Shown in pieces: positions 2,965-18,774 of a stretch of DNA of 20,456 bases. This DNA comes from a virus. Position numbers and translations under genes: made by a program. Within the stretch, counting starts at the first letter, position 1. Each line of letters starts with the position of its first letter. The stretch covers positions 1-20,456 of IMG/VR virus record IMGVR_UViG_3300013132_000331; one strand, 5' to 3'. Under the pieces are notes generated by a model. The model saw only the letters and a program-made list of their open reading frames with translations, did not search any database and was not told where the DNA came from.

Positions 2965-4238
2965 TGGCAGGGCTTTTTGGCGGCGGTCTAGAGCGTATCA
3001 GGCGTCAGGCGGCGTATATGGCTCCGCGTATTCAGCGCGGTGAACGCCCCGCGCCTGCCCCCATCGTGCAGGGTACGCAGGCGCGGACGCGCGATCAGGC
3101 GCAGCAGGCTGGGCTGATCGGCGGGGCGTACAAGAACCCCCGGTCGATGGGCTGGTGGGACGAGATCATGGCCGATCCGTTCACCGCGCTCTTTGCCGGC
3201 CGCAACGGTCTTGACCGCAAGTATGCATCGCAGGCGGCTGAAGATGAGGCGCGGCGGGTCGATCCCTTCCTCGCTACAATGACACCGGAACAGCAGGCCA
3301 TTTACAAGGCCAACCCAGAGGCATGGGGTGAGTCCATGGCGAAAAACTACGCGCCTCAGAATGTCAATGCGGGTGATACGCTGATCATGCGAGGCGATAC
3401 GTCAAAGCCGGTCTTTGCCCCAAAGATCGGAATGGATGGTGGCGTGCCTTATGCGCAGACCTATGCCGATGGCGGCGTGAAGACAGAGTACGGCACGCCG
3501 AGGCAAAAAAGCTATTCTGAGCTGACCGCAGAGGGCGTTTTGGCGGAAACCGTCCGCCACAACCAAGCAACGGAGCGCCTCGGCGGCCAGCGTTTGCAGG
3601 TCGAGCGTGACCGTCCGCAACGCTCTGGCCTGACCGATTATCAAGGCCTGCAGTTCCAGTTCAAGCTGGACGATCTTGACCGCGAACTGGCTGAAAAAGA
3701 GCGCATGCGGAAAGCAAGCCTTGATTCGATCACCGAAACTCTGGCTCTTGCGCGTCGCTTCAGCAGCCCCGAGGAATCGGCCAAGTTCAATGCCACCTAT
3801 GGCAACGTCATAAACCCGACAGGCAAGAAGGATGATCTATTTAACTGGCCGATAGCGATGGACCCGAACCGCGCAGACGGTATGGCTATTCTTGAGCAGT
3901 TGGGTGGCGCGGCCTTCCTTGACTCAATTCAAGCCATGAAGGGTACCGGCTCGCTTTCTGATGCGGAAGGCGCTCGCGTCATGGCTGCTGCAACGCGCCT
4001 GATGACGGTCACCATGAGCGATGCAGAAGCCGCAAAAGCTGCGGCTGACTTTATTGAGAAGCTTGAACGCTATGAAAAAGCATTGAAGGAGGATCTGGAA
4101 AAAGCGCGTGGCGAAGAAATAGGGCGCCGCCAGCGGATGAACGCCATGATGGGACGAGCGGCGGCAGGTGGCGGTGAGGACCTCACATCATACTCAACCG
4201 AAGAACTGGAACAGATGCTAGCGGAGCAAGGCCAATAA
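2964..4238 (+). CDS. Internal virion / ejection protein candidate (P22 gp20 position)
   Basis: A 424-aa protein whose ATG overlaps the previous stop as TGATG. It opens MAGLFGGGLERIRRQ, then a Pro-rich stretch, a WWDEIMADPFTALFAGRNG segment (~62-80), a DPFLATMTPEQQAIYKANPE segment (~98-117), a Gly/Asp-rich beta-type middle (~130-180), and a long charged helical half with likely coiled coil (~225-260 and ~360-395). There is no signal peptide or clear TM segment. P22 gp20 (471 aa) is similar in size and place. I recognise no catalytic motif. Function as an ejected virion protein is inferred from gene order only. Confidence 0.6.
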   Translation: MAGLFGGGLERIRRQAAYMAPRIQRGERPAPAPIVQGTQARTRDQAQQAGLIGGAYKNPRSMGWWDEIMADPFTALFAGRNGLDRKYASQAAEDEARRVDPFLATMTPEQQAIYKANPEAWGESMAKNYAPQNVNAGDTLIMRGDTSKPVFAPKIGMDGGVPYAQTYADGGVKTEYGTPRQKSYSELTAEGVLAETVRHNQATERLGGQRLQVERDRPQRSGLTDYQGLQFQFKLDDLDRELAEKERMRKASLDSITETLALARRFSSPEESAKFNATYGNVINPTGKKDDLFNWPIAMDPNRADGMAILEQLGGAAFLDSIQAMKGTGSLSDAEGARVMAAATRLMTVTMSDAEAAKAAADFIEKLERYEKALKEDLEKARGEEIGRRQRMNAMMGRAAAGGGEDLTSYSTEELEQMLAEQGQ

Positions 4239-7200
4239 TGCCTACCGCAGCCGAAATTCGGGCAGAGCTGGAGCGCCGCAAGAAGGCTGCTCCACCGCCT
4301 GCTGTTCCACCGCCTGCTGCGCCGACCGGAAACAGGCCAGACCCGGAGGCCATCAAGGCCGAGCTGGCGCGGCGGATGGTCACCATGGGCACACCGCAGG
4401 CTGCGGCTCCAGCGTCTAGCAGCTCTGGTCTTGGTCCGGTGAATCCGATGGTGGCCGAAGGGCAGGCGATGGCGCGTCAGTACGCCAGCGCCGACCCGGG
4501 CATGTCTCCGCTTCGGCCTGATGTTCGCGGCGATGTGGCATTGCGCCAGTCTGGCAGGCAGCTTCCGGCTCTGCGCGGCCCGGTCATGTCGTCCGCCCAA
4601 CGCGCCGCGATGGCCCCCGAGCGCGCGGAAGGCTTGCGGCAGCGCCAGCTTGCAGCAGAGCGCCGCGATGCGTCCCGCGCCTATGGTGGCGGCATGGACA
4701 TGGCCGTTTCGACTGATGACAGGGGACGATTGCAGCCCGGTACGGAAGCCGATCGCGATCTCTCCAAGTCAATGATGGCTGCCCTTCCGAATGCGGCGTC
4801 TGATCTAGCTGAGTCAGTCGCCAATCTTCCCGGAGATGCCATCAAACAAATCACCGGGAACAGGCTCATTCCGCAGGTCGATCTGCCTCGCATGGACATG
4901 GAGTATGAGTCGCCTGTCGGTGCGTTTGCCGGCCCGGCCGTCGAAAACCTGACACAATTCATTCTGGCCAGACGGTTGGTCGGAAAAGCCGCAAAGGGTG
5001 GCGGTTCGATTGCCTCGCGTGCGAAGGATGCCGTGGCCGTCTTTGCGGGCGTCGATAGCGACGAGCAGGATTGGGGGCGATTGGCCGAGATGGTCGATGG
5101 CGCAATCCAGGAAACTGGCTCACCGCAGGCCGTGAAGGATGCAATCTCTTGGATTGCTGAGCGCGACCCTGAGAACCCGCTTTTGGAGCGGGTGAAGAAC
5201 ATCATCGACTTTGCGGCTCCAGATGAAGCGTTGCGCTTTGCCGGAAAGGGGCTGTTGGCGGCAGATCATGCGCTGATGGGCAGGTCAGCTCCCGTTCCAG
5301 CAAACGCAGGCGGCGCGTGGCGTCGTCCCGTCGCGCCTCAGCCCTCAGTCGCTCCCGTCGCCCAGCCCGCCGTCAGCAATGCGCCGCAGAGGCCCGCTCA
5401 ACCGGGGCCGACCGGCGCGGGGCAGCAGCCTGCTGGCGGTCCCGCTACCCTCCAGGCTAGCCCCGTCTCCGGCAATCCTGCGGTCGCTCGCGACACTCAA
5501 GACATTTTCCGGAAGCTGTTCATCGACAGCAACGTACCCCGTAACAACGTAGACCGGCTTTTGGGTGAGCTGACAAATGACTTCCAGGTTTTCCAGCGTT
5601 CGGGCTCGCCAATAGCGACGCGCATTGGCCTTGCTGAGTTCGTTGATGCGAATGTCAGGGAGACCGCCAACCGGCTTGGCATGAATATGACGCCAGACGT
5701 TGAGCGCCAAATACAGACAGCGATTCGCGGCAGAGGCCGCGCGGCGCATGGCAGCGAGGGCGGTTCTAAACAGGATCGGCAGCCTTCTGTTATGTCGCAG
5801 TATATCGAGGATATGCGGACAACGCAAAAGGACTGGGCGCGCGAACAGATCGAAGCCCCCAACGCATTCAACAAAGCGGATATTTCGGTTCAGCGCGACG
5901 CCATGAAGGCAACCGCTAAAGACATTGGCCAGCAGGTGTACGGACAAGGCTTGAAGCTTGCGCGCGAAGTCTGGAATGATGTTGCGCCTGCTGCCGCTGG
6001 GGAAAAAGAAGCTCTCACCAACCTCCAAAATTACCTTCTTCGCAAGCCTTATCTCCAAAACGTGCCAGACTATGTGAAATTGCGTCTCGCCGTCGATGAC
6101 GTGCCCCTTGAGGACGCGATCAAAGCCGACCCTGCTGGCATGGCACATCGTATTCAATCGGTGCTTGGTGAAGCTGCATCGCAGGCCAATGACCCCGCCA
6201 TGCGCAGCGCCCTCGGTGAGGCGCGCGAACGGCTCCTGAAAGAGTTGCAGGACGCTGTTCCGGCCTACCGGCAAGCGCGGAAAGACTTTGGCGACGAGTT
6301 CGCCACGATGCGCGCCTTTGATTTTGGCCGTCCGTTCTTTGCCGATTCGCGCCGTCCCGTCGATGTCGCTGACATGAAGGCGGACTATCAGCAGATGACG
6401 ACGCGCCAGAAGACAGCGGCGCGCATGGCTGTTCGGGATGAAATCTTTGGCGTGTTCGGAATGAACGCAGAGGATGCTGCCGTTCGTCTGGAAGTCCTGA
6501 CCCGCGGGAACACGCTTGACGCTTTAGAGGAAGTTTTCGGAGCACCAGGCAAGCGCGTTGCAGACACTCTACGCAGGCTGCGTCAGGAAAGTCAGTGGCT
6601 GTCTGGCGATAAGTCTCGCGGCCTTGCTGGCGTTGATATTTTCTCAGGTTCCAGCACGGTCCCAAATGGAAAAATAATCGAACGCGATGCGATGTCGGTT
6701 CGCAATGGCTTTCAACGCGCCATTGCCAAAGCGGGAGACGTCTCAAAGTTTATGTTTGCCGTTCCTGCGGACTTGGCGCTTATGGTGGGGTCAGGCGGTG
6801 CTTATCATCTGCCGATGCTTTCGCTTGGCGCGGCAGGCGGCAAGCTGACCAAGGGTCTCGGCAATGCGAGCCCTCGCAAGCTGAGCAATGCAACCGAAGG
6901 CATGTTCTCGCTGCCGAAACAGAACGTGTTGGCGCCACCGTCCCGACCCGCTCGCGTGCGCGGGCCACGCTCCCCCGCGACGCAGCAGCCCCTTCCCACC
7001 GATGTGCGAGAGCTTCTCAACGCGTATGCGGCGGCTCCCACAAAGCGCGAGCGGCAGCGCATTCGGCGCGCCCTTGAGGCGCTTGGCGAGCAGGTTCCGA
7101 CAGCGCCCGCCCCAACCGGCCCCCGCCGTCCGCCAGAGCAGTCGGGCTTCGGGGGCGCTCCGGTGAAGGGCGGAAGCGGCACCGTCCAGCGTATGATTGC

Positions 7201-8395
7201 AGGCGGCGTTGTCGGCGGCATGGCCGGGACGTTTGCAGGGCAAGCGGATGCGCAGGCAGAAGAGAAACTGACCGCAGACATCGGCAAGGCGGAAAGCCAG
7301 ATTGCCACGTTTGAGCAGGAAATCGCTGATTTAAAAAAGGCCAAATCAGACTTCGACAAGATCACCGATCCGTTCAAAAAGCAGCGCTTCCTGAAAGACC
7401 AAGGCCTGTATGCCGGAAAAATCGAGGGCGACATTGCCGGTAAGACAACCGAAGGCATCAATGCGTGGGAGAAGAAAAACGCTGAAGCGCAGGCAAGAGC
7501 CGAAGAGGATCTTGCTGCCAAAAAGGCCGAGCTTGCGGACCTCAAAAAACAGGCCGCTTACAGGCAAATCCAGAAAGAGCAGAACCCATTCTTTGACGCG
7601 GTCAGGGAGCTTGGCCCGTCTGGCGCCGCCGTTCTAGGAGGCATTGCGGCAACGGTGCTGCGTGTCAGGGGCGTCGGCAAATCCAAGCAAGCTGTGAAGG
7701 TTATCGAGAACGATATCAACGATCTGCTGACGAAAGGCGACGTCAAAAGCTTGTTCAAGAAAGGCGGCGCGCAGAATGATCGGCGCAATCGCGCTGTCAA
7801 CATGAATGAGTTCTATCGCCGTGGCGGCACACCGGACAACAAGTTGCCATTCAACTATGGCCCATCAGGTTGGAAATCAAACCCGAAAGCGGCGAAACCT
7901 GGATCGCTGTTTAAGCCTGAGACGACGACAAAAATGGACGGCGTCGGCTCGCAGTTTTTCCGACCAAACGATGTAAAGCTGATCGGAGCTGGTGTGCTCG
8001 ATGCCGCGCTGGTGACGCCGTTTGTTGAAGGCGCAAAGGAAGAACTGAAAAAGGCGCAACTGGATGTTGAAAACGGCAACGAAAGCATTGAAGCGCTGAG
8101 GCGCGTCGAGAAGGCCAAGACTAACCTTGCAATGTATGAGGCGGTGCAGCGCTTCGGCTTGGGTCTTGCGGCCGCTGGCGGGCTCAGCGCTGGATATCGT
8201 TACAAGCTTCCACGTCCGGACATTCGCGGCGCAGAAGACGAGGTTACGAAAATAGCTGACTACCTCAAGTCGAAGGCTCCTGCGAAACCGCCAAGAGCAC
8301 CGCGCGTACAACCGCCTTCCGCTACGCCTGTGGCAGCACCATTAAATCAACTTTTGCTGCCGCTTTTGCCTCCAAAGAAACCGGGAAACCCCTAG
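4238..8395 (+). CDS. Large internal virion / DNA-ejection protein (P22 gp16 position), 1385 aa
   Basis: Starts at ATG 4238 in a TAATG overlap. The N-terminus has two copies of an A-x-x-I-(R/K)-A-E-L helix separated by a Pro/Ala linker (~1-50). Residues ~385-800 are mostly helical and include DAVPAYRQARKDFGDEF (~672-688), a phrase I associate with large alphaproteobacterial phage virion proteins. Gly/Ala-rich hydrophobic stretches at ~850-868, ~981-1004, ~1126-1145 and ~1307-1320 could insert in membranes. Residues ~1007-1115 are a coiled coil interrupted by a peptidoglycan-binding-like motif (QGLYAGKIEGDIAGKT, ~1055-1070). This fits a protein ejected into the envelope to form the DNA conduit, like P22 gp16 or T7 gp16 but much longer than P22's 609 aa. 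No lytic transglycosylase motif was seen. Confidence 0.66.
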   Translation: MPTAAEIRAELERRKKAAPPPAVPPPAAPTGNRPDPEAIKAELARRMVTMGTPQAAAPASSSSGLGPVNPMVAEGQAMARQYASADPGMSPLRPDVRGDVALRQSGRQLPALRGPVMSSAQRAAMAPERAEGLRQRQLAAERRDASRAYGGGMDMAVSTDDRGRLQPGTEADRDLSKSMMAALPNAASDLAESVANLPGDAIKQITGNRLIPQVDLPRMDMEYESPVGAFAGPAVENLTQFILARRLVGKAAKGGGSIASRAKDAVAVFAGVDSDEQDWGRLAEMVDGAIQETGSPQAVKDAISWIAERDPENPLLERVKNIIDFAAPDEALRFAGKGLLAADHALMGRSAPVPANAGGAWRRPVAPQPSVAPVAQPAVSNAPQRPAQPGPTGAGQQPAGGPATLQASPVSGNPAVARDTQDIFRKLFIDSNVPRNNVDRLLGELTNDFQVFQRSGSPIATRIGLAEFVDANVRETANRLGMNMTPDVERQIQTAIRGRGRAAHGSEGGSKQDRQPSVMSQYIEDMRTTQKDWAREQIEAPNAFNKADISVQRDAMKATAKDIGQQVYGQGLKLAREVWNDVAPAAAGEKEALTNLQNYLLRKPYLQNVPDYVKLRLAVDDVPLEDAIKADPAGMAHRIQSVLGEAASQANDPAMRSALGEARERLLKELQDAVPAYRQARKDFGDEFATMRAFDFGRPFFADSRRPVDVADMKADYQQMTTRQKTAARMAVRDEIFGVFGMNAEDAAVRLEVLTRGNTLDALEEVFGAPGKRVADTLRRLRQESQWLSGDKSRGLAGVDIFSGSSTVPNGKIIERDAMSVRNGFQRAIAKAGDVSKFMFAVPADLALMVGSGGAYHLPMLSLGAAGGKLTKGLGNASPRKLSNATEGMFSLPKQNVLAPPSRPARVRGPRSPATQQPLPTDVRELLNAYAAAPTKRERQRIRRALEALGEQVPTAPAPTGPRRPPEQSGFGGAPVKGGSGTVQRMIAGGVVGGMAGTFAGQADAQAEEKLTADIGKAESQIATFEQEIADLKKAKSDFDKITDPFKKQRFLKDQGLYAGKIEGDIAGKTTEGINAWEKKNAEAQARAEEDLAAKKAELADLKKQAAYRQIQKEQNPFFDAVRELGPSGAAVLGGIAATVLRVRGVGKSKQAVKVIENDINDLLTKGDVKSLFKKGGAQNDRRNRAVNMNEFYRRGGTPDNKLPFNYGPSGWKSNPKAAKPGSLFKPETTTKMDGVGSQFFRPNDVKLIGAGVLDAALVTPFVEGAKEELKKAQLDVENGNESIEALRRVEKAKTNLAMYEAVQRFGLGLAAAGGLSAGYRYKLPRPDIRGAEDEVTKIADYLKSKAPAKPPRAPRVQPPSATPVAAPLNQLLLPLLPPKKPGNP

Positions 8396-8610: not shown

Positions 8611-9258
8611 ATGTCCCGTCTCCGCAACCGCCCTGACCGTTTCACGTTCAAGGGCGATCCTTTCGCATTCCACCGCATACAGGACGGGGCCACGCTGGGC
8701 CGGCTTGATCCTTACGCATCAACCGAGCAGCGCTGGCTGTTGCACTCCGGCCGCGTGCTGATGGTGACGGGCGCGGATGTCCGCGACATCACCGAACAGG
8801 TTCACGGCATCAAGCTTCCGACAAGCCGACCGACAGGGGATTGGGACGAGGAGCGGGTTGCGGCCATCGAGGAGAATATCCGTCTCCTGTTCCAGCTTGT
8901 CGGCGCTATCGAAGTGGCTCAACCGCGCGAGGAGCCGCCTGCACCGCCCGCGCCTGTGGAAGAACCGCCTCCACCCCTCCTGCCCGAACCGGACGCGCTT
9001 CTGTCCGACTACGGCCCCGTAGGCGAAGACGAGGACATCACCGGCGACGTGCTGCTGGAAGCCTTTGAGGCGGACGCGACCGAGACCGCAGCCGTCGTCA
9101 AGACGCTGTCAGCCACGCGGCTGAAGCATCTCAGCGAACAACTGAACGTCGAACGCGCAAGGCTGGATCGTGAACACCAGGCCACGGGCGTTGCCAATCC
9201 TAGGTCCGCATCGATCGACCGTCTGCTCGGGCTGCTGACGCGACGCGGGGAAGTCTGA
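8611..9258 (+). CDS. Unrecognised Pro-rich protein, first gene of the accessory cassette
   Basis: A 215-aa protein with CGGAG 8 bases before the ATG. The N-terminal ~95 residues look folded (FTFKGDPFAFHRIQDG, RWLLHSGRVLMVTGADVRDITEQVHGI, then a helix ending LLFQLVGAIEV). A Pro/Glu linker follows (~107-130), then an acidic segment and a C-terminal helical region (KTLSATRLKHLSEQLNVER, ~168-186). There is no TM segment or signal peptide, so it is probably soluble. It precedes the coiled-coil, four-TM and Hsp70 genes with short gaps and is probably co-transcribed with them. I do not recognise the family and assign no function. Confidence 0.6.
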   Translation: MSRLRNRPDRFTFKGDPFAFHRIQDGATLGRLDPYASTEQRWLLHSGRVLMVTGADVRDITEQVHGIKLPTSRPTGDWDEERVAAIEENIRLLFQLVGAIEVAQPREEPPAPPAPVEEPPPPLLPEPDALLSDYGPVGEDEDITGDVLLEAFEADATETAAVVKTLSATRLKHLSEQLNVERARLDREHQATGVANPRSASIDRLLGLLTRRGEV

Positions 9259-9281: not shown

Positions 9282-9701
9282 ATGTCGGAACAGGTTGTAG
9301 AGATCGAGCGTCAGCGTGACGCGTTCAAAAGCCTTGACCGGATCAACACGGTCGAGCGTGATGTTGCGGTTCTCAAAACCCGCTTTGAAGCGGCGTTCGA
9401 GACCTTCCTGAAGGAACTGGAACGCAGCGTTTCAGCCGAGGACATTAAAGAACTAAAGCGAGAATGGGAGACGGCTTTGCGTGAAGCCCTGCACACCGTG
9501 CGCGAACATTTCACCAGCGCGAATGAACAGCAGTCCAGCGCGATCCTTGCGCAGGTTGAGCTGATGCTTGCGCGCGATCGGGAAGCGGCGGCGAGCGAGG
9601 CGAAGAAAACCCGGCAGCAATTCCAGTACCTGTTTGTCGGCGCGCTGCTGTCAATTGCAGGCTCGCTGTTCGTCTCCTGGGAAACCATCGCGCGCGGGTA
9701 G
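9282..9701 (+). CDS. Coiled-coil protein with C-terminal membrane anchor, 139 aa
   Basis: ATG 9282 follows two purine-rich SD-like runs (GAGGGG, CAGGGG). Residues ~1-112 are almost entirely charged amphipathic helix (IERQRDAFKSLDRINTVERD, ELERSVSAEDIKELKREWE) with heptad-like spacing. Residues ~114-134 (FQYLFVGALLSIAGSLFVSW) are one hydrophobic helix, followed by a very short tail. The layout predicts a tail-anchored inner-membrane protein with a cytoplasmic coiled coil. It lies between an unrecognised gene and a four-TM coiled-coil protein, so a shared membrane complex is plausible. The spanin role is already filled at 13627-14122. Function is unknown. Confidence 0.62.
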   Translation: MSEQVVEIERQRDAFKSLDRINTVERDVAVLKTRFEAAFETFLKELERSVSAEDIKELKREWETALREALHTVREHFTSANEQQSSAILAQVELMLARDREAAASEAKKTRQQFQYLFVGALLSIAGSLFVSWETIARG

Positions 9702-9726: not shown

Positions 9727-10929
9727 GTGAGCAAGTTTCTAGACAAGTTTCTTGAGTTCAAGAATGAGGCCGACGCAACGCGCAAGTTTGCGTTGTTTGC
9801 CGTTGTCATCATCACGCTGGGCCTCGCATCCCTCAGCGTCACTGGCATTGTTGCAACGGCTAATTGGACGTGGCTAAGCTTTTTGCCGATCCTCGGCATG
9901 ATCGTTGCCGTTCTGGGCGCCGAGCTTCTGGCAACCGTCGCTTTCATTCGGATGCTCACCGCATCGACCACATGGCGCAAGGTGGCGGGTGCGTTCATCT
10001 TCGTTGGCCTTGCAGCGGTCGGCGTCCACAATGCGGAGAATGGCGCAAAGGTCGTCTGGCCGGATCGCTTTGCCGAAAGCAGCACAAGCCTTGCCGCCAA
10101 GGCGGCGCTGGCAGGCGAGGAAGCCGGGACGCTGGGGACAGCGCAGCAGGCGGCGATTGCCGGCACCGGGGCCGAGCTGGAACGCGTCAGGACGCAGATT
10201 GCCGAACTGAAGACCGAGCAACAGATCATGGCGAGCATGTCCCCCGAGGGCATCTCGAAGGCGCAATCGCTCCTCCTCGCTCAAGGGCTCTACTTCGGAA
10301 GCGTGGACGGCATCCGCAGGGACAAGACCGAAAGCGCCATGCGGGCGCGCGGTGAGGCGATCCAGGCCGAGCTTGCAACCCTCAAGGCACGCGAGGACGG
10401 CCTCATGGCCGGGCAGGCAAGCCCGGTGCAGGCCGCCACGACCGACCGGCGCCTGTCAGAGATCGAACTGGCCGACAGGGCAAGCCAGGCATTCTGGGCA
10501 TGGGTCTGGCTGATCTTCATGCTCTGCACGCTCGAGGCCGCCCGCTCCCTCAGCCTCTGGGCGCTCATCACAGATATCAGTGCGGTTGACGCCAGGCGCG
10601 ATCGGGAACGGTCGGACGAGCTGGCCGAGCTGCGGCATCAGCAGGAAGTTGCCGCCCTTCGGGGCCAGATGGCTCCCGCAGCCCCGCCTGTCGCGGCTGA
10701 GCCTCCCCCGCCTCCACCCCCCGAACCAGAGCCGGAACCCGCCCCAGAAGCCGTACAGGAGCCGCTGACGCTGGTGGACCCGCCAGAGCCCGAGTTGACC
10801 CCGCAGCAGCGCGCGGCGCGTCAGGGCGGGCTGGCCGCACAGCACGAACGCCGGGCCGCGAAGACTGAAAGGCTGTTGGTTATTGGCCCTGTCTCAACCC
10901 TCGATCAGATGAAGGTTGCCGCAGAATGA
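9727..10929 (+). CDS. Four-TM protein with coiled coil, peptidoglycan-binding-like motif and Pro-rich tail, 400 aa
   Basis: I choose GTG 9727 (reads VSKFLDKFLEFKNEAD), preceded by AGGCAGGGCAGG. The upstream extension to 9568 is Arg/Cys/Ser-rich and overlaps the previous gene out of frame, so it is rejected. Hydrophobic helices lie at ~20-42, ~47-74, ~86-103 and ~255-282. Between the third and fourth is a coiled coil (ELERVRTQIAELKTEQQ, ~150-166), then AQGLYFGSVDGIRRDKT (~185-201), which fits the PG_binding_1 pattern, then more coiled coil. The C-terminal ~120 residues are cytoplasmic-looking, with a Pro/Glu-rich tract (~317-345). It overlaps the Hsp70 gene by ATGA. The topology would put the motif on one side of the membrane. 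Function is unknown; a membrane partner of the Hsp70 is an inference from coupling. Confidence 0.65.
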   Translation: MSKFLDKFLEFKNEADATRKFALFAVVIITLGLASLSVTGIVATANWTWLSFLPILGMIVAVLGAELLATVAFIRMLTASTTWRKVAGAFIFVGLAAVGVHNAENGAKVVWPDRFAESSTSLAAKAALAGEEAGTLGTAQQAAIAGTGAELERVRTQIAELKTEQQIMASMSPEGISKAQSLLLAQGLYFGSVDGIRRDKTESAMRARGEAIQAELATLKAREDGLMAGQASPVQAATTDRRLSEIELADRASQAFWAWVWLIFMLCTLEAARSLSLWALITDISAVDARRDRERSDELAELRHQQEVAALRGQMAPAAPPVAAEPPPPPPPEPEPEPAPEAVQEPLTLVDPPEPELTPQQRAARQGGLAAQHERRAAKTERLLVIGPVSTLDQMKVAAE

Positions 10930-12464
10930 AACTCCGCAAAGTCGTGGGCCTAGATCTCGGATCGAGCAACAGCAGCATTTCGCACTGGACCCCACGCGGG
11001 CCGGAAGTGATCAACGTCGATAGCAGCCCCTTGCTTCCCAGCGTCGTGACCATCGTGCCGGCCGACGCCGTCGCCAAGGGCGATTCACAGATATTCGTCG
11101 GCCTTGATGGCATCGAGGCGGGCAAGCGCAATCGCGATTTCTGCTTTCGCCTGTTCAAGCGCCAGCTTGCCGCTGCATGGCACGAAGACGAGGACACGGG
11201 CCATCAGACCGTTGAGGGCCGGGACGAGGAGACCAACGAGCTAAACGGCGAGCTGCATTACCAGGGGCCGGACGGCTATACCTACAGCCCGACCATGCTT
11301 TGCAGCGCGGTCATATCGAAGCTGCTTGATGCCGCCGCGGTCAAGTTCAAGGAACGGCCTGACGCCGCGGTCATCTGCGTGCCTGCGACCTTCACCCATG
11401 AACAGCGAGCCGCCGTTGAGGAAGCGGGCAAGATGGCGGGGCTCAAATACATCGAGCTGATGGACGAGCCGACCGCGGCCGCTGTGGCCTATGGCTATGA
11501 TTTCAAGAAAGTGCGCAGGATTGCCGTGCTCGACGTTGGCGGCGGGACAACGGACGTTAGCATCATCCAGACCGGCGCCGGGCTGGTCACGGTATTGGGC
11601 ACGGGCGGGTCCAGCATCACGGGCGGGTCGGATGTGGACGCCATGCTTGGCCGCTACATTGTGAGCGAATGGGCCAAAAGCCACGAGGGCGTTGACCTTG
11701 CCGTGGATGATACGGCCATGACGCTGGTTCTCAATGAATCCGAGGAAACGAAGAAGCGCCTGAGCCGGAAACAAAAGACGGAATTTCGGATTAAGGATTT
11801 CGACCGTACGCCTGGCGGGGAGGTCCTGCACATGGACCACGTCGTCGACCGGCCATTGCTTGAACATCTCAGCAAGGAAATTCTTGCCCGGATGCGTCAG
11901 GCTTGCACCATCGCGATAGCCGAGGCCCAGCGCAAAGACCCGAAGTTTTCCGTCCGCGACCTCAATGACGTGGTGCTTGTCGGCGGCGGGACCAGGATGC
12001 CTGCCGTTCAGGCCCTTGCTGCGCAGGTGTTCGGGCAGGAGCCAAAGACCGACATTGACCCCGAGATTGCCGTTGTGCTTGGCGCGGCGATCCGTGCGGC
12101 TGTGATCGAGGGTCGCAAGTCCGACCTCACCATTCAGGATATCATCAGCTATTCGGTTGCCATCGAAGTCTATGACAAGGTCGAGGGCGTCGCGTCCGTC
12201 ATCATTCCGAAGGGCACGCCATACCCGAGCGAGAAGGAAGCGGCCTTTGTCCTGACAAACCGCGAGCCCGGCCAGACGGTCCTGCCTGTGCGCATCGTGA
12301 CGGGCGATGAAAGCCGGGCTGCGCTCTGCAACCTGCTTCATGCGATCGATGTGCCCTTGGAGCCGGGCGAACCGCGTTCTGCCCGCGTGCCGTTCACGGT
12401 GGCGTTGAGCGACAGGGGTACGCCTTACGGGCGTGTTGGCGATGTGGAGTGGGGCGAGGCGTGA
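10926..12464 (+). CDS. Hsp70/DnaK-type ATPase lacking the helical lid, 512 aa
   Basis: An actin-fold Hsp70 ATPase. Phosphate-1 is GLDLGSSNSSIS (8-19, DnaK GIDLGTTNS). A Lys fits the DnaK K70 position (K78, FKR). The connect-1 region has VPATFTHEQRAAVEEAG (152-168) and DEPTAAAVAYGYD (180-192). Phosphate-2 is VLDVGGGTTDVSI (201-213). The adenosine motif is VVLVGGGTRMPAVQ (349-362), followed by DIDPEIAVVLGAA. All ATPase motifs appear intact. Residues ~400-512 resemble a shortened beta substrate-binding domain. The hydrophobic VLLLD linker is altered (DLTIQD), and the ~100-residue alpha lid and C-terminal tail of DnaK are absent (DnaK is ~638 aa). No DnaJ or GrpE is visible nearby. It is coupled by ATGA to the four-TM gene and by GTGA to the endolysin. 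Confidence 0.9.
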   Translation: MKLRKVVGLDLGSSNSSISHWTPRGPEVINVDSSPLLPSVVTIVPADAVAKGDSQIFVGLDGIEAGKRNRDFCFRLFKRQLAAAWHEDEDTGHQTVEGRDEETNELNGELHYQGPDGYTYSPTMLCSAVISKLLDAAAVKFKERPDAAVICVPATFTHEQRAAVEEAGKMAGLKYIELMDEPTAAAVAYGYDFKKVRRIAVLDVGGGTTDVSIIQTGAGLVTVLGTGGSSITGGSDVDAMLGRYIVSEWAKSHEGVDLAVDDTAMTLVLNESEETKKRLSRKQKTEFRIKDFDRTPGGEVLHMDHVVDRPLLEHLSKEILARMRQACTIAIAEAQRKDPKFSVRDLNDVVLVGGGTRMPAVQALAAQVFGQEPKTDIDPEIAVVLGAAIRAAVIEGRKSDLTIQDIISYSVAIEVYDKVEGVASVIIPKGTPYPSEKEAAFVLTNREPGQTVLPVRIVTGDESRAALCNLLHAIDVPLEPGEPRSARVPFTVALSDRGTPYGRVGDVEWGEA

Positions 12465-13627
12465 ACGATCATCTGTACGTCAACAATCACGGACTGAGGC
12501 TTATCACGCAGTTTGAGGGTGAGCCGCGCCTTAAGGCCCGTCTGTGCGAAGGCGGGGCTTGGGAGATCTCATACGGGGTAACGTTCTATCCCGATGGCTC
12601 GCCGGTCAAGGAAGGCGATACCGTCACCTATGACGAGGCTCTGGCCATCTTCCGCAATGCGCTTACCGTGTTCGAGGATCACGTCAAGCGCCTGGTGACG
12701 GTCGCGCTCAACGGCAATCAGTTCTCTGCGCTTGTCAGCCTCTGCTACAATATCGGCTCGGCCAATTTCGAGCGTTCAAGCGTGCTGCGCCATGTCAATG
12801 CGCGCCGCTTCGATGACGCGGCCGACGCGTTCGGCATGTGGTTGTACGCTACGTTAGGCCAGCACAAGCAGGCGCTACGCGGATTGCTTCGTCGTCGCTA
12901 TGCCGAAGCCGTCGTCTTCATGGGCTATGATTTCGAGGTCGCGTGTTCGGACGATGCCGTAGCCCTTGTCCGTGAGCGTCCGCCCGGCGACATCGGGACC
13001 GATAAAGTCCTGTTCAAGACGCCATTCCGTGACGTGCTCGTCGTCGCCCAGCGCTATTCGCTTCCGCCTCTGGACGATGAGCTTGTCCTTACCCAACCCG
13101 CTTCACCGCGCGTGCCTGCGGTCGAGGCGGCCCAGCGACAGCCCGACCCTGCCCGGTCCCCCGCTGTCGCTGGCGCTGCCTCCCCACCCAAACCCGCCAC
13201 TGCGTCTCCGGCGGCGGCCCCGGCGGCGAGGGCTGGCGTAACTCAGCCCTCGCCGCCACCAGTTCCAGCCGTCATCACTCGGCCCGCGGGCACGAAAACC
13301 AAGAGCCCGAACACAGTCGCGCCGGCTGATGTGCCCTACAAGATCGACGCCAATGCTGGCCTGAAGCCGCTGGAAGAAAGCGACCGCGCAAAGGGCTACT
13401 GGTATCAGCAGGCCGGGATTGGGATGATCCGCCTCGGCTCGCTTGGCGTGTTCGGGACAACCGTGCAGGGCGGCGCTCAGGTGCTGCAAGGCGATCCGGT
13501 TCTAAGCAACCTTGTTCTTACCGGCATTGTGGTCGGCGGCATTGCTGCGACTGGCTACGTGGTCAAGGTTTTTGGCGACTGGAAGCGCAAGCGTGGTGAG
13601 AAGGCCGCGACGCAGGGGCTCTACTGA
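12461..13627 (+). CDS. GH24-type endolysin with Pro-rich linker and C-terminal membrane segment, 388 aa
   Basis: Cleaves peptidoglycan glycan strands at lysis. GTG 12461 (GTGA overlap with the Hsp70 stop) is preferred over ATG 12449 inside that gene. The lysozyme domain (~1-155) shows LITQFEGEPRLKARLCEGG, ISYGVTFYPDGSPVKEGD, QFSALVSLCYNIG (88-99), and the late GH24 motif GLLRRRYAEAVVF (141-153). Glu19 is the likely acid. Cys29 sits where T4 lysozyme has Asp20, as in P1 Lyz. The expected Thr position appears to be Glu35 (AWEISYG), which is unusual. A Pro/Ala linker (~212-290) leads to a hydrophobic helix (~349-371) and a basic tail. There is no N-terminal signal or SAR segment, so release probably needs a holin. 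Confidence 0.82.
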   Translation: MNDHLYVNNHGLRLITQFEGEPRLKARLCEGGAWEISYGVTFYPDGSPVKEGDTVTYDEALAIFRNALTVFEDHVKRLVTVALNGNQFSALVSLCYNIGSANFERSSVLRHVNARRFDDAADAFGMWLYATLGQHKQALRGLLRRRYAEAVVFMGYDFEVACSDDAVALVRERPPGDIGTDKVLFKTPFRDVLVVAQRYSLPPLDDELVLTQPASPRVPAVEAAQRQPDPARSPAVAGAASPPKPATASPAAAPAARAGVTQPSPPPVPAVITRPAGTKTKSPNTVAPADVPYKIDANAGLKPLEESDRAKGYWYQQAGIGMIRLGSLGVFGTTVQGGAQVLQGDPVLSNLVLTGIVVGGIAATGYVVKVFGDWKRKRGEKAATQGLY

Positions 13628-13974
13628 TGCAGGGCGTTCTGTTCGGCGTGTTCGACTTCGTCGCCAGGCACAAGTGGGTCCAGTGGGTTCTGACGGCGCT
13701 CCTGATCGTTGTGACCCTCGGCTTTTATCTGGCCTGGCGTGACGATGGCGTGCGCAAGCGTGAGCGGCAGCGGCAGGAAGTCGAAACAGCGAAAGAGCGT
13801 GAACGCGTATTAGCTACGGCACGAGAGGAAGTTGAGAATGCTGAAGATGCAAAGGACGCGGCGTTGGCTGCTCCTGATACCCTGCCTGAGTTTTCCAGCG
13901 CTGACGAGCTGCGGAACGAAGCCCCCGCCCTCGCCAAAATCATACTCCGTGATCATCCGCGAGACGGCCAGTGA
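13627..13974 (+). CDS. Rz: Inner-membrane spanin (Rz-like)
   Basis: A 115-aa protein starting in a TGATG overlap with the endolysin stop. It has one N-terminal TM helix (WVQWVLTALLIVVTLGFYLAW, ~17-37) and then a long charged coiled coil (~40-85; RKRERQRQEVETAKERERV), the standard Rz layout: anchored in the inner membrane with the periplasmic coil reaching for Rz1 to fuse inner and outer membranes at lysis. A +1-frame lipoprotein gene starts inside it at 13838, the diagnostic Rz/Rz1 arrangement. The assignment rests on topology, position after the endolysin and the nested partner, because Rz sequences are poorly conserved. Confidence 0.85.
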   Translation: MQGVLFGVFDFVARHKWVQWVLTALLIVVTLGFYLAWRDDGVRKRERQRQEVETAKERERVLATAREEVENAEDAKDAALAAPDTLPEFSSADELRNEAPALAKIILRDHPRDGQ

Positions 13975-14169: not shown

Positions 14170-14379
14170 ATGGCTACTATTGAGCTTCCGAACTTTGGCG
14201 GCAAGGATTTCTGGCGCAATGCGCGCCTCCTGCTCTGGTCGCTGATCGTCACGCTTGCTGCGCTGGACATTTTCGACCTGATCCAGATCCCCGAGTATTT
14301 CGCCGGAATGGTCGCGCTCACCTACGTCATTGCCGGCTGGGTGATCGCCTATCACCTGATCAAGCGCTGGCGTGGCTAA
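14170..14379 (+). CDS. Small two-TM protein, holin candidate, 69 aa
   Basis: ATG 14170 with AGGAG 11 bases upstream. Two hydrophobic helices (~19-38, LLLWSLIVTLAALDIFDLI; ~44-64, FAGMVALTYVIAGWVIAYHLI) are joined by a short turn (QIPEY), and the C-terminus is basic (KRWRG), as in two-TM class II holins. Its place right after endolysin and spanins supports a holin, which would release or trigger the endolysin. Small membrane proteins of lysis cassettes are hard to tell from antiholins or pinholins by sequence alone. Confidence 0.6.
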   Translation: MATIELPNFGGKDFWRNARLLLWSLIVTLAALDIFDLIQIPEYFAGMVALTYVIAGWVIAYHLIKRWRG

Positions 14380-16546: not shown

Positions 16547-16604
16547 CGGCGTGCTGATGTTCCATCGTTGTTTTCCTCAAAAGGGGTGGGGGTGGTTGGG
16601 TCAT
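16518..16604 (-). CDS. Candidate micro-ORF, 28 aa, ending in the 33-bp repeat
   Basis: The ATG at 16604 overlaps the stop of the PAPS-reductase-like gene (ATGA), and its TAG directly abuts the next ATG. It reads MTQPPPPLLRKTT then EHQHAGASIVAGGR. The last eight residues are identical to the end of the gene at 17348. It looks like a fusion of two junction modules with almost nothing between. It may be a translational bridge or the scar of a deleted gene and not a functional peptide. Confidence 0.4.
   Translation of the reverse strand: MTQPPPPLLRKTTMEHQHAGASIVAGGR
16583..16604 (-). repeat. 22-bp junction repeat D, copy 2
   Basis: Second copy, immediately after the PAPS-reductase-like gene. 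Confidence 0.8.
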
Positions 16605-17347
16605 ACTGCATCCTCAACGGCAATCTGACAGAGAAAATCACACGCTGGCGCGATGGGATTTGTGGTCGGCCAATCGGCGGGAATTTCATCGAGGAACATG
16701 CGAACGTCTTTGATGCGCGTAAGCCGCACGTCCAGATCACGTGACAGCTTCGCCATGCGCTCGAAGTGCTCGGGGAATTGTTTGCGCACGAGCGCCCAAT
16801 AGTCGGGGCTTGTGGCCTTCGGGCACGGGATGCAGTTGTTATTGTGAAACCCCAACGCATACATGGCCGGAAGCGTGATGCCTGCCGATTGCAGGAACCC
16901 AAGCGCCCCGGCCTTCGTGATGCCGCGTTCAATCAGTGGCGCGCGAACGCTGCGAAGCTCTGGAAAGTTCGCCTTGAAACGGTTGAACCGCGCGAGGTCG
17001 GCAGCGTCAGCGGTGTATCCGAACACGTGCGAGTCGGTCGGGCGCTGGTAGGCAAAGCGCGGCTGCTTCTTCAGCTCATCCGTGCAAAGCGCGCCCTCAA
17101 TGCCCGCGAGCCAGCGGCGCTTTTCCCACACATCCCACGTTGAGTGGTACTTATCCGAACGAACGCGAATGACGGGCTGACCGAACCAGCGCTCGCAGTC
17201 AGCGATAAAGCGCTCGTTGTCTGGATGCTCCGCGCCTGTCTCGCAGTAGACTGCTTCGCAATGGTCTTCCGTGAGCATGAGCTTCGTTGCAACGGCAGAC
17301 GCTGCGCCAGCGCTGAACCATGACAAGGTACGGGGCGGTGGGGCCAT
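16601..17347 (-). CDS. Phage PAPS-reductase-like PP-loop protein, 248 aa
   Basis: Adenylyl-sulfate reductase / PP-loop ATP pyrophosphatase fold, soluble. The N-terminal LSWFSAGAASAVATKL (8-23) is the phage version of the SGGxDS PP-loop, followed by CETGAEHPDNERFI (~35-48), matching the DTG strand. The C-terminal NNNCIPCPKATSPDYW (~170-185) is a CxxC cluster typical of this phage group. Sulfite production is unlikely in a phage; related PP-loop enzymes activate substrates by adenylation in nucleotide or tRNA sulfur chemistry and in DNA modification (DndC type). The substrate here is unknown. ATG 17347 abuts the previous TAG and uses the SD of the 33-bp repeat. Confidence 0.82.
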   Translation of the reverse strand: MAPPPRTLSWFSAGAASAVATKLMLTEDHCEAVYCETGAEHPDNERFIADCERWFGQPVIRVRSDKYHSTWDVWEKRRWLAGIEGALCTDELKKQPRFAYQRPTDSHVFGYTADAADLARFNRFKANFPELRSVRAPLIERGITKAGALGFLQSAGITLPAMYALGFHNNNCIPCPKATSPDYWALVRKQFPEHFERMAKLSRDLDVRLTRIKDVRMFLDEIPADWPTTNPIAPACDFLCQIAVEDAV

Positions 17348-18064: not shown

Positions 18065-18130
18065 GTTCAAATCATCCAACGGGTGGCGCGGCGTGAGCCA
18101 GTCGAGCAGTGCGCGCAGTAGGAGGGTCAT
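18047..18130 (-). CDS. Candidate micro-ORF, 27 aa
   Basis: The ATG at 18130 overlaps the pentapeptide gene stop (ATGA), and the TGA overlaps the next GTG (GTGA). It reads [17 protein letters not shown] then [10 protein letters not shown], an amphipathic helix with an acidic tail. It fills the gap exactly, keeping the operon translationally continuous. It may be a short peptide or a coupling leader. Confidence 0.42.
18118..18130 (-). repeat. 13-bp junction repeat E, copy 2
   Basis: GTAGGAGGGTCAT on the + strand, at the start of the 27-aa ORF. Confidence 0.5.
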
Positions 18131-18774
18131 GCCTGCACCTGTTCAGCAGCTTTCACTTCCGCCGCGATCACGTCGTCAAAGTAGTCCAGAATGCGCAGCG
18201 TCTCGCGTGCCTTGGGCGTGTCGGGGTATTCGCGGGCGACGTGCGCCGCGTAGTCTGCGCTCGTCAGGAACCAGCACCCCGCGACGATCATCGGCGGCCC
18301 TTGCTCCATCTCGAACAGCATGAACGTGTAGCCGTCGCTGACGCGCTGGACACTAGCAAGTTGGCGCTTGATTTTTTCGCCGTTGAGGTCCGCGCCGCTG
18401 AGGTTCGCGTGGCTGAGGTTCGCGCCGATGAGGTACGCGTGGCTGAGGTCCGCGCCGTTGAGGTCCGCGCCGCTGAGGTTCGCGTGGCTGAGGTTCGCGC
18501 CGATGAGGTACGCGCCTCTGAGGTACGCGTGGCTGAGGTTCGCGCCGCTGAGGTTCGCGTGGCTGAGGTCCGCGCCGCTGAGGTTCGCGCCGATGAGGTA
18601 CGCGTGGCTGAGGTCCGCGCCGCTGAGGCTCGCGCCGGTGAGGTACGCGTGGCTCTTAACCGCCACCCGCACCGCCAGCCCTAGCTTGACCGTCCAGTGT
18701 GCGTCCTCGGAGCAGTCGATTTCAGCGGTGCACTGGACCGCGCCCGTGAAGCGGTTTTTGATTTCGTACTTCAT
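18127..18774 (-). CDS. Pentapeptide repeat protein, 215 aa
   Basis: The N-terminal cap (1-40, [20 protein letters not shown]) is typical of phage pentapeptide proteins. Residues 41-130 are 18 uninterrupted pentapeptides of the form (S/I)(G/H)A(D/N/Y)L, predicting a right-handed quadrilateral beta-helix of about 4.5 coils. Residues 131-215 form a separate domain ([34 protein letters not shown]). Such rods can mimic DNA (Qnr, MfpA gyrase inhibitors), but most phage members have no known target. An early-expressed phage DNA mimic is possible. ATG 18774 overlaps the NinB stop (ATGA). Confidence 0.88.
18385..18654. repeat. 18 x 15-bp tandem repeat encoding pentapeptides
   Basis: The 15-base unit (cgcgNNgNtgaggtN on the + strand) repeats without interruption and varies mainly at a few positions, so the DNA is far more uniform than the protein requires. 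This suggests recent expansion or homogenisation and likely length variation by slippage. Confidence 0.9.

Follow-up and report, generated by a model that had tools for sequence, protein, structure and literature searches.

Virus-encoded Hsp70 proteins are known from plant RNA viruses, the closteroviruses, whose HSP70h of 550-606 aa has virion and movement roles. Among phages, jumbo phages (Lak, the LR7565xx records and the moraphages, PMC12619734) encode a full-length DnaK with a lid. In the single-gene lysis system of MS2, which has no phage Hsp70, the host-encoded DnaJ acts at the membrane on the phage lysis protein L, as a chaperone of the Hsp70 system (PMC10688784). Two bacterial Hsp70s are specialised in ways that bear on the present locus. 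HscA is devoted to one partner and binds only the short peptide LPPVK of IscU, and the peptides favoured by DnaK have a hydrophobic core with positive residues on its flanks, as in NRLLLTG (PMC8215388). HscC is a short, specialised Hsp70 that is thought to act at the plasma membrane and has membrane partners encoded nearby, the tail-anchored J-proteins DjlB and DjlC (PMC8215388).

We analysed a phage Hsp70 that shares features with each of these systems. The stretch of DNA under study, referred to as the window, is a virus record of 20,456 bases, and its relatives with a lidless Hsp70 are IMG/VR contigs. A preliminary description of the window reported a phage-encoded lidless Hsp70-like ATPase in a late position, coupled to a membrane protein and the endolysin, and this arrangement recurred in 33 contigs, including the window; because both lidlessness and gene order recur, the association is not due to chance. 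The same description regarded an Hsp70 gene as rare in phages, which has to be amended in view of the jumbo phages; the unusual point is that a podovirus carries a lidless form in its lysis region. What is new here is that a 46-residue tail of the neighbouring membrane protein switches with the type of Hsp70 while the body of that protein does not.

The Hsp70 gene (10926-12464, + strand) encodes 512 aa, divided into an NBD (about residues 1-398), a linker (about 399-405) and an SBDbeta (about 406-512) from Pfam, NCBIfam and PDB sequence matches, AlphaFold2, Foldseek and residue mapping. The Pfam model HSP70 (PF00012) matched with 286 bits (E 6e-85, profile positions 1-452 of 599, cut-off 20.6) across the NBD and SBDbeta, which places the protein in the Hsp70 superfamily, and the PDB sequence search gave the same identification. 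In the alignment with E. coli DnaK, the equivalents of D8, K70, P143, R151, E171, D194, G196-198, T199 and D201 were conserved, as the preliminary description had noted for the ATPase motifs, and those of D8, K70, E171, D194, T199 and D201 were kept in all lidless types. The protein is thus a predicted ATPase with intact catalytic residues. Its C-terminus falls where the lid helices of DnaK start. The AlphaFold2 model, built on 19 relatives, showed a DnaK-like fold made up of an NBD and an SBDbeta of eight strands (residues 411-509), without a lid (mean pLDDT 85). The earlier view of a short beta-domain without a lid therefore holds for the lid and not for the domain, which is essentially complete. 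The best solved matches in Foldseek were DnaK structures, with TM scores up to 0.86. The viral matches were giant-virus Hsp70s and closterovirus HSP70h, which has the same overall fold and about 18-21% identity; the sole named phage match was weak.

Other features set the protein apart from canonical DnaK. The interdomain linker (12120-12140, + strand) reads SDLTIQD where DnaK has KDVLLLD, so that LTIQD replaces VLLLD (389-393), in agreement with the linker change described earlier. E177 and D180 (11454-11465, + strand) occupy the positions of R167 and N170, the J-domain receiving site of DnaK in the alignment; in DnaK, the HPD motif is oriented towards the arginine R167 (PMC7289447). R167, N170 and the VLLLD linker were changed in every lidless protein examined, and the complete relatives (486-513 aa) end before the helical lid (SBDalpha). 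The scores lay below the cut-offs of the NCBIfam DnaK equivalogs (278.7 against 648 bits and 269.3 against 822.55 bits) and of the HscA models (240.1 against 620 and 234.8 against 708.55 bits). HscC, in contrast, keeps R167 and N170 and cooperates with J-domains. A search of 26 phage records, which are fragments, found no J-domain, and a J-protein may be encoded in another part of these genomes or by the host.

Scans with the Hsp70, the upstream membrane protein and an alignment of all Hsp70 types added 32 IMG/VR contigs that encode a lidless Hsp70 (30-96% identity). These proteins have 486-513 aa; two are truncated by contig ends, and some contigs are near-copies of one another. Based on identity, we distinguished type I (that of the window, 73-98% within the type), type II (36-41% to type I), type III (37-43%) and type IV (50-53%), and two single lines outside these types (L183 and L211). 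The other Hsp70s of the same scan with measured frames were DnaK-like, about 520-650 aa from match to stop, and had no such membrane-protein or lysozyme neighbours.

In a maximum-likelihood tree, 17 lidless proteins were separated from 32 others with a branch support of 100/100. The lidless proteins fell outside HscC, the jumbo-phage DnaKs grouped with bacterial DnaK, and HscA formed a long branch of unsure placement beside the phage lidless proteins. A quick second tree that included L183, L211, L178 and L210 placed lidless and full-length proteins on opposite sides of one branch; the branches leading to L183 and L211 were long. As the trees part lidless from full-length proteins and the long HscA branch adjoins the former, a single origin of the lidless form is compatible with these data, not proven by them. 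The closest cellular sequences were DnaK-like at about 33% identity, and those rebuilt in full were full length; the L183 protein is nearer to DnaK (about 41%). A recent capture from a host was rejected on this low cellular identity and on the fully supported separation. That the gene is a host-derived dnaK fragment or an assembly artefact is barely credible: hosts commonly encode Hsp70s, and DnaK-like genes of hosts do occur in some phage records, but the gene order is conserved in 32 relatives, which rules this explanation out, and the separation from cellular DnaKs is fully supported (100/100). In INPHARED, only DnaK- or HscA-like Hsp70s were found. The record of Pseudomonas phage Y6 (OQ572408) and several OR84xxxx records, which are unannotated or unverified, carry DnaK-like genes and may contain host DNA.

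A membrane protein was encoded upstream of the Hsp70 in 33 of 33 contigs, directly so in all except one (L038), where an HNH homing-endonuclease-like gene lies between the two. In the other 32, the spacing from the membrane-protein stop to the Hsp70 start was -4 to +11 nt. In the window, the two genes overlap as ATGA at 10926-10929. A GH24 lysozyme was encoded downstream in all contigs that continue, with an HNH gene in between in L014, L021 and L026, and the Hsp70 stop of the window overlaps the lysozyme GTG start at 12449 or, more likely, at 12461 as GTGA. Both start/stop overlaps had been pointed out previously. Further upstream, a coiled-coil protein with one C-terminal TM in hydropathy analysis (9282-9701, + strand) precedes the membrane protein in most contigs, with similar-looking small genes at this place in L183 and L211. 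In most relatives, the block is also preceded by a conserved sequence that corresponds to the C-terminal part of a soluble protein (8611-9258, + strand). Full-length phage DnaKs had neither a membrane-protein nor a lysozyme neighbour of this kind, and the DnaK-type Hsp70s in comparable viral contigs were likewise without them. The constant order and late position support the conclusion that the Hsp70 is genetically locked to the membrane protein and the endolysin. The conserved order and the retention of the ATPase residues across types confirm the observation of the preliminary description, and neither isolated dnaK fragments nor a loss of ATPase residues, which would have counted against it, were seen. 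Its interpretation is partly supported; the functions it put forward (folding of virion proteins, gating of lysis, a moron or defence function) are candidates.

The endolysin (12461-13627, + strand; the frame is also open from the GTG at 12449) consists of a GH24 lysozyme domain (Pfam Phage_lysozyme, 110 bits), a Pro-rich linker and a C-terminal TM region predicted by hydropathy. With such a C-terminal anchor, the GH24 domain would stay on the cytosolic side. The domain order is that of SpmX (GH24, Pro-rich linker, C-terminal TMs), whose model gave 68.5 of 700 bits; the SpmX and BgtA models matched below their cut-offs, which hints at a host perhaps among the Alphaproteobacteria. The next gene (13627-13974, + strand) encodes a spanin-like protein with one N-terminal TM (18-36) and a weak PHROG match to Rz-like spanins. 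A two-TM protein of 69 aa (14170-14379, + strand), which has homologues downstream in several relatives, is a holin candidate by its hydropathy.

On the + strand of the window, ejection-type genes are followed by small genes that encode membrane segments and then by the Hsp70, the lysozyme and the spanin-like gene. In the right part, the - strand encodes NinB, a RecT-like protein and others. No RNA families or tRNAs were found in the window, and tRNAs gave no pointer to a host. Genes for the large terminase, portal, major head protein, ejection-type proteins and tail spike occur in the relatives together with one for a tyrosine-type integrase, and the group therefore looks like uncultured, apparently temperate podoviruses. 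The portals were similar, at 24-40%, to those of Manatee Spring podoviruses, Alcaligenes phage QDWS535, Roseobacter CRP-901 and Caulobacter RW. No member of this portal set was among the Hsp70 matches in INPHARED. The annotation of two of them (MW202785 and OK172329) lists no Hsp70 and places a GroES co-chaperonin in the head-gene region.

This setting bears on an alternative in which the Hsp70 is a chaperone of virion assembly or DNA ejection that folds or delivers the large internal (ejection) proteins, its proximity to lysis genes reflecting late transcription only. Ejection-type proteins (PHROG 2534 and 598) are indeed encoded upstream, no promoter or terminator that separates the Hsp70 block from its surroundings was found, and closterovirus HSP70h provides a precedent for a viral Hsp70 in the virion. 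However, the constant neighbours are the membrane proteins and the endolysin, the upstream ejection genes vary strongly, and the portal relatives of similar architecture lack an Hsp70. We consider this explanation rather unlikely.

The upstream membrane protein (9727-10929, + strand, 400 aa) is predicted to have three N-terminal TMs (the third weak), a periplasmic coiled coil, a further TM and a cytosolic C-terminal part. It had been described as a four-TM coiled-coil protein. Three TMs exceeded a simple hydropathy threshold (21-39, 55-73 and 263-281), and the fourth is a weaker candidate (about 84-106). Four clear TMs were seen in each of two proteins that occupy this position and belong to another family. 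DUF4407 (PF14362) did not match in seven of eight records, and the L210 record gave a sub-threshold 12.6 bits. No cellular counterpart was found in GTDB contigs or in 385 genomes from the same class as a Brevundimonas genome, the latter a weak result without a positive control, and INPHARED held no relative of either membrane-protein family. The hairpin of the predicted periplasmic coiled coil resembles PG_binding_1 below threshold. A coiled coil with a peptidoglycan-binding-like QGLYxGxxxG hairpin (Pfam below cut-off) occurs both here and in a large ejection-type protein (4238-8395). In L014 (8772-10001), the hairpin (residues about 156-215) is swapped for a divergent version, and the flanks match L009 and L010.

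The cytosolic part comprises a Pro/Glu-rich linker (10663-10788, + strand) and a C-terminal tail of 46 aa (10789-10926, + strand), which we regard as a candidate Hsp70 docking peptide from its co-variation with the Hsp70 and its presence on a different body in L210. The tail, predicted to be cytosolic from hydropathy and charge, consists of a basic-rich stretch and a short aliphatic core behind the linker; in the window this core is ERLLVIGP (10867-10890). The cores RLLVIG, RVLILA, YIPVP, RLIVIP, KKIPV and KILIPP resemble known Hsp70 ligands in their sequence.

The body of the membrane protein (residues 1-308) was about 70-100% identical between most phages regardless of Hsp70 type (41-44% in L045), whereas the forms of the last 46 residues matched the Hsp70 type, and no mismatch was seen among the contigs. 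Over 22 contigs, the correlation of distances with the Hsp70 was 0.95 for the tail, 0.29 for the body and 0.79 for the lysozyme domain; the partial correlations were 0.91 for the tail given the lysozyme and 0.55 for the lysozyme given the tail. Within type I, the tail (0.63) was no better than the body (0.60), and the signal of co-variation therefore lies between types. Pairwise blastn and alignment revealed that nucleotide similarity between phages of different Hsp70 types ends in the linker. For example, L026 (type I) and L037 (type II) are 94% identical in DNA up to nt 1070 of the membrane-protein gene, then carry a different tail and Hsp70, and regain similarity only towards the end of the lysozyme region; the break point is nearly the same in other pairs. 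In L210, the Hsp70 is 98.8% identical to that of L023, and the four-TM body of the membrane protein, without detectable similarity to the window-type protein, belongs to a different family, also present in L183 (29% identity). Its tail is nevertheless homologous to the window-type tails (hhalign aligned the tail only, with a probability of 97%) and by eye closest to those of type II. The L183 protein has weak similarity to the window protein across coil and tail (25%, E 1e-12), and the two bodies may therefore share a remote ancestor.

The tail segment adjoins the Hsp70 gene, and joint exchange without binding would give the same co-variation. Tail, Hsp70 and lysozyme domain could simply be a linked cassette that is exchanged through crossovers in low-complexity linkers or by homing endonucleases. 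This is suggested by the break in the Pro-rich linker with similarity resuming in the later lysozyme gene, by the lysozyme-Hsp70 correlation and by the HNH genes beside the Hsp70 in four contigs, which could drive such exchange (L038, 1296-2018; L014, 11524-12207; L021, 3639-4442; L026, 2945-3511). The equally close Hsp70-lysozyme junction has, however, recombined in L006 (Hsp70 95% and lysozyme 57% identical to the window), yet no tail and Hsp70 are mismatched, and the linkage holds down to 30% Hsp70 identity and across two membrane-protein families. We judge linkage without binding unlikely.

The exchangeable alleles may also be read as a system of envelope exclusion or counter-defence, expressed early or from the prophage, in which Hsp70-tail pairs block other phages or host defence. 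Relatives carry an integrase, the alleles change on bodies that stay nearly constant, as in diversifying systems, and chaperones take part in bacterial immunity, as in the case of DnaJ and bNACHT25 (PMC12169576). Against this stand the lack of any detected promoter or terminator of its own, the strict proximity to the endolysin and the PADLOC search, in which the best Hsp70 match reached an unconvincing 16.1 bits; a known anti-phage defence system was rejected on this result. Such a role seems quite improbable. PADLOC also matched a PAPS-reductase-like protein of the window (16601-17347, - strand) to SspD (49.6 bits, E 1e-13; Pfam PAPS_reduct sub-threshold), possibly a DNA-sulfur-modification-type or other sulfotransferase-related phage gene. 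A pentapeptide-repeat protein (18127-18774, - strand, 141 bits) is encoded between NinB and other early genes.

We favour the reading, with a probability of roughly 0.55, that this protein is a dedicated, membrane-tethered and J-independent Hsp70, docked through the tail and acting late at the envelope, perhaps on lysis. The constant gene order, kept ATPase residues, lost J-domain residues, co-variation of the tail, the L026/L037 swap and L210 are in favour of this reading. The correlation of the lysozyme domain and the equality of tail and body within type I count against it. In an AlphaFold2 model of the read-through tail and Hsp70 chain of L029, the Hsp70 was folded and the tail unplaced (pLDDT below 50), perhaps because of the short fixed connection and the thin alignment; the model is thus neutral on docking. 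The tail would probably be a private ligand of the Hsp70 peptide groove, as LPPVK of IscU is for HscA, and would hold the Hsp70 at the inner membrane without a J-protein. The phage pair would differ from HscA and IscU, since HscA has a lid and a J-protein partner and its client is a soluble protein of Fe-S assembly, not a phage membrane protein. The membrane recruitment proposed in the preliminary description gains strength from this switching tail as a candidate docking element.

With somewhat less than even odds, the ATPase cycle of the docked Hsp70 would act on a late envelope event. The likeliest target would be the holding and release of the membrane-anchored endolysin or the membrane complex itself, leading to timed lysis; the constant proximity of the endolysin and its predicted C-terminal membrane anchor make lysis control the most likely role. 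More tentatively, the Hsp70 might be an ATP-driven clock or holdase, lidless, J-free and controlled through a private peptide, that sets the moment at which the membrane-anchored endolysin is released, and the membrane protein may then contact peptidoglycan. A literature search of an open library returned no description of a module of this kind, which is limited evidence of novelty.

Hsp70s are usually lidded and controlled by J-proteins, and the phage form has neither the lid nor the J-contact residues and is locked to one membrane partner. If the binding is true, this would be a minimal Hsp70 whose targeting is encoded in an exchangeable tail, with natural cognate and non-cognate pairs. It would make the need for a lid and J-proteins testable, and could uncover a layer of lysis or envelope control in phages that uses ATP.
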